A DNA stretch of 64,000 nucleotides from Chaetoceros tenuissimus. Lineage: Eukaryota > Bacillariophyta > Thalassiosirophyceae > Chaetocerotales > Chaetocerotaceae. The translations under genes and the position numbers were made by a program. The stretch lies in the NCBI GenBank assembly GCA_021927905.1, contig BLLK01000062.1, forward strand, positions 310,001-374,000, given 5' to 3'. Positions 52,141 through 58,981 of the stretch are shown piece after piece. The notes beneath the pieces are model-generated. The model saw only the letters and a program-made list of their open reading frames with translations. It was not told the DNA's origin and did not search any database. Each line of letters starts with the position of its first letter. Within the stretch, counting starts at the first letter, position 1.

Positions 52141-53289
52141 CTATTGAGACTTAACAAATTCTTCAAACGACATTTGATTCCGTGGCTTGAGATATTTCAA
52201 AGCATCCATTGCTTCTTGTTCTACTTCTGACGTTTCACCACCTTCAGGCCTCGTTCTCTGAAAATAATCATCACCCGAGGCAGATTTTGCAACTCTATGT
52301 ATATGTGCTGTACTTCGACCTCCAACAAGTTCACACTCGCCATCAATAGAGTCAACCAAGTCTATTTGATAATCTCCAAATGGCATAGTTCCATCTCCAA
52401 CGACAGGATCAACAGAGCCATGTGTATTCAACTTGTATTCAGTAGTAATAAGTATTGTACCTTCTTTACACTGTGCTCCAATAGAATCACTCAAGTTGCT
52501 CATCATTTCAGCTGAAAAACAAGTGGAGAATACAAATATGATGTCTGAATCTCCATAGTATTCATATCGATCATCAAATGAACCACAACGAAATGCTACT
52601 GGAGCAAGCTTTGCATTCAAATAGTCACTACAAGGCAACGAAGCTACACCATCAATTTCATTGGTGCATGCTTCTAATGTAGACACAGCCTTCTCATGAA
52701 TACCCGGTAAAATTTCAATTCCTCGTGCAAGCTTCAAATTTGGATGTAATGCAGCAGCACCAAATACTAATCTACCTGTACCAGATCCAATATCAGTAAA
52801 AACCTTTTGAGAAATATCACTTGATCCACTCTCTGCATTGTGCATCTGAAGACCTTTCTCAATCAAATCTGCAAAGAATAAAAAGTCAAATTCTCCATAT
52901 GTCAAACCTTGATCTGGTTCTTCACCTTTGGAAATATATGACCAATACCCATCTGTACGAGAGAGAGCATTTCTGCTGGATAAATCTTCATCTGGATACA
53001 ATTTATTTAAGCCATCTTGTACATCTCCGAAGCGGACTCCTGAAGATGAAATTTTATTCGGATCGACTGATAATATTTGACCTTGTGCTTGGTCATTGAT
53101 ATGTTGTGTATTCCCAGTCAGATCGTAAGCGTTGCTGTTGAGATAATGCTCATATGGGTGTGATAAAAGTCTGCTAGGAGGGGAAAGTGTCTTATGTCTA
53201 TTATTTGTTGGAGATACAAATGCAGTTCCAGTGTTGGCACAGCTGAAAAGAAAGAATGTGTAGAGAGGAAGATAGCGTTGAAATATCAT
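52141..53289 (-). CDS. DOT1-like SAM methyltransferase with plastid-type presequence
   Basis: Single exon, 382 residues. The N-terminus YLPLYTFFLFSCANTGTA|FVSP is a signal peptide with an F at +1 (ASAFAP-type), implying import into the complex plastid. The methyltransferase fold starts near residue 160: motif I is FTDIGSGTGRLVFGAAALHP, with an acidic residue at the end of beta-2 (RGIEILPGIHEKAV), and a later FVFSTCFSAEMMSNLSDSI resembles the DOT1-type NNFAF region. DOT1 proteins methylate histone H3 lysine 79, but chloroplast delivery argues for another, unknown substrate. The gene converges on the dynein chain with 62 bp between stops and diverges from the kinase-like gene. Confidence 0.82.
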   Translation of the reverse strand: MIFQRYLPLYTFFLFSCANTGTAFVSPTNNRHKTLSPPSRLLSHPYEHYLNSNAYDLTGNTQHINDQAQGQILSVDPNKISSSGVRFGDVQDGLNKLYPDEDLSSRNALSRTDGYWSYISKGEEPDQGLTYGEFDFLFFADLIEKGLQMHNAESGSSDISQKVFTDIGSGTGRLVFGAAALHPNLKLARGIEILPGIHEKAVSTLEACTNEIDGVASLPCSDYLNAKLAPVAFRCGSFDDRYEYYGDSDIIFVFSTCFSAEMMSNLSDSIGAQCKEGTILITTEYKLNTHGSVDPVVGDGTMPFGDYQIDLVDSIDGECELVGGRSTAHIHRVAKSASGDDYFQRTRPEGGETSEVEQEAMDALKYLKPRNQMSFEEFVKSQ

Positions 53290-53757
53290 ATTTGCAGTGG
53301 TAGTAGTAGTCGACTGAAGAAAGAATTGTTAAATTTCTCGGAATGAAAACGATACGAATCACGAATGTAGATACAGCTGGAGTGATTAGTCTGTGTTGTT
53401 GTCAGCTATGGTATAGGAAACAATGAAAGATAGACAACCTTCTTAATCATTTTATTTTCATTGGTGTCTCATGGTATTTCGTGGTGGTGTGACCGTCTAC
53501 GTCTGTTGTTGTTGAATGTGGAAAAGAAAAAGCAAATGACGTTTCTCCAAAAAGGCCTCAAGAAGGGAAATTCAAATTTTGACAGGGGTCAAAAGTCGCA
53601 GAAGCTGGATAGCCTCTTTTAGCTTTACAATTTATGGGAAGCTCATAATTCAACACTGATTTGTAGAGATACTTGTTTCCTATTTATATATCAACTACAA
53701 ATTCACAGCTCTCGATTCGCAGTACATAGTGTGTAGTACTATTAAGAAAAACTGACA
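53290..53757. promoter_or_regulatory. Shared divergent upstream region
   Basis: 468 bp between the start codons of the DOT1-like gene (minus) and the dolichol/phytol-kinase-like gene (plus). It must drive both. A possible TATA-like TATTTATATATC lies near 53680, about 75 bp before the plus-strand start. No ORF. Confidence 0.35.
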
Positions 53758-55177: not shown

Positions 55178-58100
55178 TCATAATGGCTTACAGAATCCCT
55201 TGAAAATTGATTCCTTCATATACACTGGGTTAGTCATCCCAACAAACTCATGAAGGGTCTCTCCACCCTTTGTATTTGCCTCTACAATGTCTTTTAAAGT
55301 AATCGGACCTGATTTGATCAAGTTGAATCCATATGGAGTAAATGTTTCTTCACCCTTAGCCCAAACATGCTCAGATATAAGGGGATGTGTGAAGACTTGA
55401 GAAAATGCGTCCAGTGCAAGAAATTTCTTCATAGTAGCACCCCAAATAGAATCAGAAGCTAGACAAGACGGATGAGAAACGAGACAGTATTATGATGAAC
55501 CATTTGTAATAAACTTACCATGATCAGCAGCCATAAGACCGACGATAAATTCGACTTTATTTACATCACCATAGACATCGCATAACGCTTGCTGGATACT
55601 CTCATCCAATGTGATATCTGCAAAAGACTTGGGACGAGGTTCGCCCATATACTCGCAATAGTCAACATAAGGTTTCAACTTCGCTGCACGACCCATTTCA
55701 ACTGCACGAACATCTCTACTCGCCAAGTATTCAACTTCAGTATTCTTCAATGTAAATGCAGTAGCACGATGGTTGGAAATGTTTACAAAAGCCTTTCGCA
55801 AGTCACCTCCCATGTTTGATTCGTTCAATAGCAAGTCATTATTGAAAAACTGCTCCATGATAGAATAGTCTTTATCTCCCCAATGAATAGTATCTGGAAC
55901 GAGAGCATGTAAACGGTAGAGAATATAAAACTCTGCCGTTATCCAGTTTGGTTTGTACCAACTGGCGTTCCAAATTTTCTCGTTTGGATCAAGTCGCGGA
56001 GTCACATTTTGAGCTGTGATGTGTTGCCCAATATAGTCTTCCAAGATGACCTTAAGATAAACCACAGTAACAAGGTTTCTGGTAATCTGAAATACCCTTT
56101 CATCATTCCATTCAGGGTTATTACGTTCAATTTCAGAAGCATGGCGATTGTGCTCTCTCAACATTAACGTAGCTAGAGCAGTGACATTTGGACTCAAATT
56201 ATTTCGTGCCCCCCCAAAAGCAAAAATGCTCTTTCTCAGTTGCTTTGCCCTTTGCCCTGGGACATGTCCGCATAGATATTTGAGTCCTTGTGGGTACTCG
56301 AGTTTATCGAACTCGGCCTTGACATCCCCGTTTTCTTGCAGCATAAACTCAGGCCATTCTTCTCCATTGATGAGTTGACTCTTTAGACGACCCTTCTCAC
56401 CCTCCATATCACTACAGAGACGAAGTTGCTTTGTTTGAGCATCTGAGAGTCCATACAAGTTCGCTGAAAGTAATGAAATGTCAGCAAATTAGTTGACGAT
56501 GTTTGAATTCGCAAAATTGCTATACCTTTTTTCTTACATAAACTAATATCATGAGGGGAGTCTGTTTTTGACCATTCAAACTCTACCTCCTCTCCAGGTT
56601 CAGCAGATTTCACCTTCGTGACAATGAAGGAATCGACCAAAAATTGTGCAAATGTAGGAAACAAATACGTGGACTAGGATAGAAATAGTTAGCATAACAA
56701 GCATGTCAGATTTAAGATAGGTTTCCTTTTTCTACGTACCTTTGGAGAAATTTTTTGCAAGCGTTCACCATTGCCAAGGTCAACTCTTTCAAATAGACTT
56801 CGGACATGTTCAAGCGGTGGAAGGTTGGTGAGGAAATCTTCAGAACACGGTTCCAAGTGCCTACTGGAGAATGTCTTATCACGGAGAGATGAATAGGCAA
56901 CGTAATCACTCTTACAAGTGAAAGGATAGCGTCTGTATTGAAAAATGCGTTTCCATATTAGATGTGTTCACATTAAAAGTACAAAGTCCTTCAAAATCAA
57001 GCATATTGAATCTTACCTTTTCCCTCCTGAGCTTGTAGCTTCGTGTACTACGAAGTCATTGATAGCATCACCAATGACAGGTAAATCGATGGCTTTACTA
57101 ATTGTTGATCCTAGCAAGTCCTAGAGAAATATTCGAACATATTGGGTGAGGAAAATAGATAGCATATCACTGTATTTATCTTTGCGAAACAATCATCAAT
57201 GACTTACTGTTATGAATCTTTTTGGGAAAGTCGTGCAATATTTATACTCTATAGCACTTGGTGGAAGTTCCGCATCTGTTACAAAAACAGATCTTTTACT
57301 TGCAGACGAAGCAACAGTCACAGCATTTGAATTGGCAAGATCTCTTGAAACTTGGTCAGATTCTTCTATTTCATTATCTTCTTCAAAGATGGCCTTCATA
57401 CTCTTTTCACTATTATCATGAGGCCCATAGTGTAATCCTTGCAAACCAATCTTTAAAGCAGCTCTTGATGCTCGTAAATCCATCTTCTTCTTCAGAATTC
57501 CCTGAATTTTGGGTGCTTCGTAAAAGTTGGTACTAGTACCACTGTCTACGTTTGGACGACGACTAGGCCCTTGAAAAAGTTTCTTCAGAGTCATAGATAG
57601 AAGTAGCTGTTCACGAGGAGAGTCACGAATAAACTTTTTAGTCTTTGCAGTCAGCTCTGCATACTTATCCAAGTCGGAGTCAGTTGGAGCATGCCCTTTT
57701 AGTGCTTCTTCTGGCATAATTCGATGGAAGTGAATATTTGGGTTATTTATTCTTGCAATGTCAATAGCTTGATAACATGATCGATCAGAACTAGAATCAA
57801 GTCCAATTGACAAGATAACTCCAAGCTTGCGATTAGGATAAAGAATCTGAGACTCCATTATCGCTTCTGCGACAGGAGCGGTGCTGATAAAACACCCATC
57901 TGCTAATGAGATTGGTTCCTTCTTGTGATATGTCTTGAATCTTCGCACAATACCTGGAAGTGCACTTGTGCTGTGGATAGCCTTTGGGACTGTGAAGGTA
58001 CTCGATCCAGCCATTGCTCTTTCTTCCACACCTTTCGGTAAATCATAGGTTCTCAGGAGAAAAGGCTTAATTTTCGCATCATGATCATTAGAATGCCTTG

Positions 58101-58981
58101 CTGCACAAAGTGCGAATGATTTCAGTCCCTCTTCATTCTTTGCGAGAATATCTTCCTTTAGAAAGTCCATGACTACATTATCAAACTGATTTTCTTTTCC
58201 TAGACCTTGGCAATCTTTGAATATATTAAAAATACTCAGTTTTGCGAAGGCCTTGGTGGCTATTTCATTGATGAGTCCTTGTCCAAGTTCAACCGCGTCT
58301 TTGCTATTCGTGGCATGAACGAATTTGTTAGGAGCAAGACAAAATTAATTCTTAAAAATACAAAGAATATTATTGCTTACGTAGATGTTGTGTTAGCAGC
58401 AAGAATGCTGCAAATACCTCCAGCTGATGATCCAGCAATAAGGTCAAATCTGGATATCCAGTCTTCACCATATCCCAATTCGCTTGATATTTTTTCAATT
58501 TCATCGACAAGAGCACACGTACTGACAACTGAAGATAGTTGAGAATTAAATTTGTAATGAGAAAAGATAACCATGAGAGAAAAGAGATAATACAGAATGA
58601 TATAGAGTGCATTAACTTACCTTTCGTTCCTCCTCCATCAAAGACAAGGATGTTGATAGGGGGTTCTTCTTCTTCGTTCTGGTTGGTACTATTTTCCTTC
58701 TTCCTTTTTGCTTCTCTGAGAGTCTTCACTCGAAATTGAACGCGTTTTCTCTCTTCCAAGAATGGCTCGCCATATCTACTTGTTGTAGAAGTAGAAGAAT
58801 AGCTCCCTGTGTCACCAATTTCTGGATAGTCGGAAGAATATTCATCGTCCTCAGTTTCTTCAAGAGTTGCTTGTCTATGCAATTTCGTCTCGTTAGTAAC
58901 CATATCATCTAGGATATCTTGGCGACCAGCGTCGAAGCCGCTTTTAATCCATGCAACTGTGGACTTGCGATTCGTACTCAT
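55178..58981 (-). CDS. Patatin phospholipase-cyclooxygenase-like haem peroxidase fusion
   Basis: Exons (complement): 58621-58981, 58381-58528, 57208-58303, 57017-57120, 56740-56932, 56526-56673, 55519-56463, 55178-55458; 1,091 residues, all phases agree, introns 64-92 bp except where noted by positions. Residues 1-105 are acidic/disordered. Patatin domain, about 109-360: glycine loop DGGGTK (115-120), nucleophile elbow GSSAGG (Ser155), catalytic Asp305 in LADGCF. A linker exon (57017-57120) leads to the animal-type haem peroxidase, about 571-1091: SSLRDKTFSSRHLEP, LFPTFAQFLVDSF, LREHNRH (785-791), AEFYILYRLHALVPD (cyclooxygenase-type Tyr866, proximal His869), and FDAFS-like C-terminus LALDAFSQVFTHPL. 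Prostaglandin H synthase is the closest recognised family; the EGF and membrane-binding regions of animal enzymes are absent. Inferred role: release of a polyunsaturated fatty acid followed by its dioxygenation. The gene is convergent with the kinase-like gene. Confidence 0.85.

Follow-up and report, generated by a model that had tools for sequence, protein, structure and literature searches.

The 64,000-nucleotide (nt) stretch of contig BLLK01000062.1 from the diatom Chaetoceros tenuissimus that was analysed here (the window) carries on its minus strand, from position 58981 to 55178, a gene initially annotated as encoding a patatin phospholipase fused to a haem peroxidase resembling cyclooxygenase (COX). 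The eight exons (361, 148, 1096, 104, 193, 136, 945 and 281 nt from 5′ to 3′; Table 1) do join without a frame break, giving a single frame of 3264 nt from ATG to TGA (1087 codons plus the stop), and all seven introns are of the GT–AG type, 60–92 nt long and with a G+C content of 28–35% as against 39–44% in the exons. A Pfam scan of the 1087-residue product placed Patatin (PF01734, model positions 1–191 of 191) at residues 112–318 with 45.8 bits (cut-off 27.7) and An_peroxidase (PF03098) at residues 679–1062 with 141.3 bits (cut-off 25), and the motifs GSSAG, ADG, REHNR and LYRLHALVPD were all found in the spliced protein. The patatin and the cyclooxygenase-superfamily domain appear to belong to one gene, as annotated, the join itself being read from the sequence. 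A C2 match at residues 773–827 (15.3 bits, cut-off 22) was disregarded, as it falls within the peroxidase domain. The N-terminal region, judged by eye, has no evident targeting signal, so that the fusion enzyme is probably cytosolic or peripheral to membranes.

Table 1. Exons, junction intron and presumed active-site residues of the fusion gene (positions in the window)
Feature	Position	Strand	Content
Exon 1	58621..58981	-	ATG start, charged N-terminal region, oxyanion motif DGGGTK
Exon 2	58381..58528	-	Nucleophile elbow of the patatin domain (G-S-S-A-G), with Ser155 (codon 58427-58425) as presumed catalytic residue
Exon 3	57208..58303	-	Remaining patatin domain; Asp305 (codon 57900-57898, ADGC); fusion-specific tail to residue 535
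Intron 3	57121..57207	-	87 nt; TAG at 57123-57121 is the splice acceptor
Exon 4	57017..57120	-	N-terminal segment of the dioxygenase module; aligns with the starts of bacterial homologues
Exon 5	56740..56932	-	N-terminal region of the dioxygenase, RRYPF...SRHL...
Exon 6	56538..56673	-	Distal haem helix FAQFLVDSF; Gln644 = COX Gln203, Asp648 (codon 56634-56632) = COX His207
Exon 7	55519..56463	-	Catalytic core; Arg766 = COX Val291, Tyr823 = COX Tyr348
Exon 7, continued		-	Tyr862 = COX Tyr385 (codon 55918-55916); His865 = COX His388 (codon 55909-55907)
Exon 8	55178..55458	-	Terminal motif LALDAFSQ, Ala1012 = COX Ser530; C-terminus and stop

The junction between the two halves

The intron that joins the two halves (intron 3, 32% G+C, GTAAGT...CTCTAG) resembles the other six. 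A separate start codon for the peroxidase half had been named at the outset as something that would speak against a fusion, and no usable one was found in frame around or after exon 4: an in-frame ATG inside intron 3 (57165) is shut off by the TAG of the exon 4 acceptor, and the first in-frame Met from exon 4 onward is residue 699, past the distal haem helix with Gln644 and Asp648. As the dioxygenase half seems to lack a usable start of its own, we take the join as real. Among the bacterial homologues shorter than 545 amino acids, 30 of 50 start (as called by the analysis script) at the equivalent of window residues 527–531, close to the exon 3/4 join at residue 535, which together with the lack of a later Met suggests that exon 4 is the natural start of the dioxygenase module and not the connector between domains for which this 104-bp (base pair) exon had been taken. 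It looks as if splicing from the patatin gene had taken the place of the dioxygenase's start codon. A linker role for exon 4 was ruled out by the alignment with bacterial N-termini, although the stand-alone support from a profile of 67 such N-termini is weak in absolute terms (2.6 bits at the junction, above 1000 of 1000 shuffles). The exon 3 tail alone was also tried as the N-terminus of the dioxygenase and gave no signal (−4.0 bits). Retention of intron 3 would add three residues and a stop (VSH*), and a patatin-only isoform made in this way is possible.

The two halves and their relatives

The patatin family motifs are a Ser in GxSxG and an Asp in DG[GA]. In the window protein Ser155 sits in G-S-S-A-G, and Asp305 is followed by Gly-Cys. 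An exon-by-exon search of the assembly (41.0 Mb, 68 contigs) found two close patatin paralogues, here called C43 (76%) and C13 (82% over its best piece). Both stop after C-terminal tails of different sequence, and in the 9–19 kb read around each the dioxygenase gave no match below E 0.05. An insert of roughly 6 kb interrupts the coding region of one of them (C13:561000-571000), and both flanking pieces still resemble the window gene. The ratio of nonsynonymous to synonymous divergence (dN/dS) was 0.093/0.59 over 198 codons against C13 and 0.166/1.58 over 300 codons against C43; the patatin half is under purifying selection. A search of plasmids with this half gave no match. By the title of the cited work only, it can be likened to the patatin-like lipolytic acyl hydrolases of Pseudo-nitzschia, in sharing the patatin domain and in the link to diatom galactolipid hydrolysis.

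For the haem domain the best match among solved structures in the PDB was COX-1 (E 3.7e-34), which mirrors the content of that database and not nearest kinship. In plasmids the best matches were bacterial ‘peroxidase family proteins’ (13 records, at most 37.8% identity), and of 512 candidate stretches from GTDB genomes 463 proved to carry a relative, the best 80 loci being 35–43% identical. Bacterial haem dioxygenases thus appear to be closer to the domain than animal COX is. For the active site the window protein was aligned with 7 plasmid and 80 genome proteins (87 homologues; plasmid locus L026, which is unannotated, was not included), using COX residue numbers that we take from the PDB-match alignment together with the usual COX numbering. 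Proximal His865 aligns with COX His388, which with the PF03098 score places the domain in the peroxidase-cyclooxygenase superfamily. Gln, Asp, Tyr, Tyr, His and Ala at the positions of COX 203, 207, 348, 385, 388 and 530 are common to the window and all 87 homologues, the Arg at COX 291 (window Arg766) is found in 86 of the 87 and the Gln at COX 533 in 84. With animal PGHS-1 and PGHS-2 the domain shares the superfamily, the catalytic Tyr, the proximal His and the REHNR region, but COX His207, Gly526, Ser530 and Trp387 are replaced by Asp648, Leu1008, Ala1012 and Leu864. Cyclooxygenases (PGHS) also carry an N-terminal EGF domain, and no EGF family was found in the Pfam scan of the fusion protein at E up to 1. 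Membership of the animal cyclooxygenases was rejected on distal His207, Ser530, Gly526 and the EGF domain, and the annotated role as a cyclooxygenase and prostaglandin initiator is not supported.

The linoleate 10S-dioxygenase of Nostoc punctiforme (UniProt B2J5P4) has 542 amino acids, against 552 in the window protein from exon 4 onward. According to the excerpts of PMC13049297 on which we draw, that enzyme keeps COX Tyr348, Tyr385 and His388 (the two Tyrs as Tyr305 and Tyr342), departs at distal His207 (motif F143tdsF), has a conserved Arg at COX Val291 and carries Ile483 and Ala487 at COX Gly526 and Ser530, its terminal motif ending in DA487FxQ490A. Set against these printed motifs, the window domain likewise has the distal Asp, the Arg at Val291, the equivalents of Tyr348, Tyr385 and His388, Ala at Ser530 and Gln at Gly533, and at COX His207, Gly526 and Ser530 both proteins depart from COX. 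Its distal motif LVDSF fits F143tdsF except that the first Phe is Leu, LALDAFSQ differs from IGxDAFxQ (the printed motif and not the Nostoc sequence itself) by Leu for Ile483 and Ala for Gly484, and one extra residue follows Tyr823 relative to the 10S-dioxygenase type. On this evidence the haem domain is, judged by its residues, of the bacterial/cyanobacterial linoleate 10S-dioxygenase type, and prostaglandin synthesis by it is not supported, since the Asp at COX His207 and the Ala at Ser530 are those of the 10S-dioxygenase. Unlike the Nostoc enzyme and those of its bacterial relatives that were scanned, however, the window domain is fused to a lipase and has Leu at the positions of Trp387 and Gly526.

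Diatoms reportedly make prostaglandins and express ‘COX’ genes of the peroxidase-COX superfamily (excerpts of PMC7096440). In the COX of Thalassiosira rotula, R275 is accompanied by L278 in place of the usual Glu of XRXXEX, and within the same excerpts none of the diatom COX sequences analysed has this Glu. The window protein, which shares the superfamily, reads ARNNL at this point, with Arg766 and Leu769 at R275 and L278, and Leu at this last position occurs in none of the 87 bacterial homologues. As the Arg and Leu match T. rotula while the bacterial proteins lack the Leu, the window domain plausibly belongs to the diatom ‘COX’ clade of that study. Unlike the window gene, the ‘COX’ of T. rotula and of Skeletonema marinoi are described in PMC7096440 as peroxidase-only. 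The T. rotula numbering would put its first residue near window residue 485–493, and the spacings taken from the printed residue numbers agree roughly only (97 against 96 and 82 against 75 residues).

Proposed reaction and competing readings

We favour, with a probability of about 0.7, the reading that the gene encodes one bifunctional enzyme, a patatin lipase followed by a 10S-type haem dioxygenase, which would start oxylipin synthesis by way of fatty-acid hydroperoxides. Going by the residues, the Ser155–Asp305 dyad would cut an acyl chain from a membrane lipid or galactolipid and, by analogy with the characterised relative as well, the freed acid would enter the C-terminal haem domain. There the peroxide-activated haem (proximal His865) would oxidise Tyr862 to a radical, an allylic or bis-allylic hydrogen would be abstracted, O2 would add and a fatty-acid hydroperoxide would be released, leaving other enzymes to complete the oxylipin. 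As the domain appears to be of the 10S-dioxygenase type (distal Asp648, Arg766), one would expect the product to be a linear mid-chain hydroperoxide rather than a prostaglandin endoperoxide. We infer that substrate may be channelled between the halves. The coupling of lipase to dioxygenase that was proposed initially is plausible, but the channelling of C20 acids that went with it is not supported: in the passages of PMC13049297 that deal with substrates the 10S-dioxygenase uses 18:1 and 18:2, does not use 18:3n-6 and uses 20:2n-6 slowly, and eicosapentaenoic acid (EPA) is therefore not assumed to be the substrate of the window enzyme. As to origin, one copy of a duplicated patatin gene probably became positioned upstream of a dioxygenase gene of bacterial type, whose start was lost.

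Several observations weigh against the bifunctional enzyme. The annotated GSSAG elbow and DG aspartate are both present, but the Asp motif is DGC where both close paralogues have DGG. A Gly is usual after the patatin oxyanion motif DGGGxK/R and the window protein has Val, as have both paralogues on the same splice model. In the haem domain, Leu864 occupies the position of COX Trp387, which is Trp in all 87 bacterial homologues, and Leu1008 that of Gly526, where the homologues have Val (85) or Ile (2); as these residues are peculiar to the window domain its chemistry may have shifted. The junction profile match is weak and within the full-length protein it scored −1.1 bits. Finally, the numbering of the T. 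rotula COX suggests that it is annotated without a patatin domain, and the fusion may therefore be restricted in its range among diatoms.

A different possibility is a true cyclooxygenase fused to its phospholipase and making prostaglandin endoperoxides from EPA or arachidonate. COX-1 as the nearest solved structure and the retention of Tyr385 and His388 would suit such an enzyme, as would the prostaglandins and ‘COX’ expression reported in the excerpts of PMC7096440 and a place in the diatom ‘COX’ clade, to which Arg766 and Leu769 may point. We consider it improbable all the same, given the replacement of distal His207, Gly526, Ser530 and Trp387, the lack of an EGF domain in the Pfam scan and the nearness of the bacterial dioxygenases compared with animal COX.

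A little less probable again is that the fusion is an artefact of the gene model, in which case the patatin gene would stop shortly past exon 3 and a separate dioxygenase gene would start close to exon 4. Two such genes would be in keeping with the early stop on readthrough of intron 3, the ATG at 57165, the unfused state of the close patatin paralogues and the T. rotula COX, whose annotation seems to be that of an unfused protein; the acceptor TAG shuts off this ATG, however, the dioxygenase half has no in-frame Met before residue 699, merely 87 nt would have to hold one 3′ end plus the next promoter and start, and intron 3 (GTAAGT...TAG) is an ordinary one. The smallest chance is given to a real fusion in which one half is catalytically degenerate, leaving a binding or regulatory fusion or a single activity. 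The presumed Ser and Asp, the proximal His and the Tyr are all retained, the distal Asp is what this family regularly has (87 of 87) and also stands in the printed motif of the active 10S-dioxygenase, and the patatin half is under purifying selection, all of which argue against degeneration even though DGC in place of DGG and Leu864 at an otherwise invariant Trp could be taken as signs of it.

Fusion history, significance and bacterial relatives

A second trace of the dioxygenase half was found in the assembly at C38 124.7–125.7 kb (L023 5272-6209), with 49% identity and an apparently broken frame. Neither its N-terminal nor its C-terminal part was found, and patatin gave no significant match in the surrounding 10 kb that were read; it is presumably a decayed relic. 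The assembly search found no unfused intact copy of the 10S-type dioxygenase, the fused one being the only intact copy found. With its close patatin paralogues unfused and a relic as the one other dioxygenase trace, the fusion looks lineage-specific and later than the patatin duplications, which is the simplest history; loss of the dioxygenase from the other patatin copies is a possible alternative. A separate alpha-dioxygenase gene lies at C58:235-237 kb (L002, L004; best PDB match 4hhr, E 8.7e-41). The assembly gave no Pfam match to lipoxygenase, one of which could be hidden by introns, gaps or divergence, and one match to catalase; the same lipoxygenase model matched one of two Acaryochloris plasmids (E 1.4e-60), which shows that such a search can succeed, and 0 of 14 control genomes. 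There were 11 silicon transporter matches in the assembly (best E 2.3e-211), as befits a diatom. A lipoxygenase survey that included three diatom genomes reports at most one gene in each (PMC5712309), and lipoxygenase is reportedly single-copy in Chaetoceros socialis (PMC9999646).

Among the matches listed from the open-licence PMC literature there was no patatin-peroxidase, patatin-COX or patatin-dioxygenase fusion, in agreement with the initial annotation, which knew of no description, and to our knowledge the patatin-like lipolytic acyl hydrolases of diatoms (Pseudo-nitzschia) include no known fusion. What appears new is the architecture, a lipase with a haem dioxygenase; both parts belong to known kinds. 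Diatom oxylipins act on grazers and bacteria and, as outlined in excerpts of PMC8511707, are made by release of fatty acids from membrane lipids and then the action of lipoxygenase. It is a tentative suggestion that in this diatom, which has no recognisable lipoxygenase, the ‘lipase then lipoxygenase’ step is carried out by one polypeptide, a lipase joined to a haem dioxygenase of bacterial origin, which would by itself initiate oxylipins triggered by wounding or stress. If so, part of the ‘lipoxygenase’ and ‘COX’ activity that has been reported from diatoms might be due to the fusion, which would be a concrete gene for a two-step activity of release and oxygenation. Diatom genes named ‘COX’ by similarity may also be enzymes of the 10S-dioxygenase type, and prostaglandin claims that are based on annotation therefore need product chemistry. 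Other oxylipin fusions, of catalase with lipoxygenase or haem dioxygenase in cyanobacteria and of dioxygenase with P450 in fungi (excerpts of PMC11719350 and PMC13049297), are like the window gene in that enzymes acting in succession share a chain. In those fusions the partner of the dioxygenase is the enzyme that follows it, which extends the product side, whereas here the preceding enzyme is joined and the lipase stands on the substrate side.

The bacterial relatives are free-standing, joined to a catalase-related domain (two) or encoded beside a catalase-family or P450 gene. At the seven annotated plasmid loci a P450 gene adjoins the dioxygenase relative in two (L025 and L028) and a catalase-family gene in two (L027 and L031), the other three having neither as a neighbour. 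Beside the bacterial dioxygenases 158 immediate neighbour open reading frames (ORFs) were listed, and 63 of them plus two fused proteins were scanned with Pfam; opposite-strand ORFs were left out, as were several same-strand ones, these last by no fixed rule. Three of the 63 were of the catalase family and one was a Tle1-like phospholipase, most bacterial loci having neither a catalase nor a P450 neighbour. Three N-terminally extended genome proteins were scanned (the 1142-amino-acid ORF of L095, which looks like an over-extended call, was left out, as were most of the remaining extended ORFs) and two of them join a catalase-related to a 10S-dioxygenase-like domain (L097 1649-4315 and L111 3828-6473). 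No patatin was seen beside the bacterial dioxygenases among the matches listed (25 of 54 families, 63 neighbour ORFs), nor any fusion to a lipase among the bacterial proteins scanned. In Nostoc a catalase-related lyase encoded by a separate gene takes on the 10S-hydroperoxide (excerpts of PMC13049297), and with this precedent the hydroperoxide-consuming catalase and P450 partners suggest that the bacterial relatives make hydroperoxides. By eye, some bacterial dioxygenases (L038 4566-6566, L059 4527-6656 and L040 7443-9515) are extended at the N-terminus by about 130–180 residues that are hydrophobic and probably span the membrane; the extension of L038 had no Pfam match.

A tree was made from the window protein, the 7 plasmid proteins and the 80 genome loci thinned to 40, that is, from one diatom and bacteria. 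The window branch is long (2.19), and the tree program warns about long branches; no starred set comprising as many as half the rows or fewer includes it, and it lies among proteobacterial sequences at an open fork (88), with starred branches separating it from the Acaryochloris pair. This placement is consistent with a bacterial origin of the dioxygenase, but we put no weight on it. The scan with the single protein found no viral relatives. With the alignment as query, 7 of 37 candidate IMG/VR stretches, on contigs that are ‘viral’ by database label (L113-L119), encode dioxygenase relatives of 31–32% identity. Within the window, an ORF on the minus strand (52141-53328), some 2 kb downstream of the fusion gene's 3′ end, encodes a DOT1-like methyltransferase domain (31.1 bits, cut-off 23).

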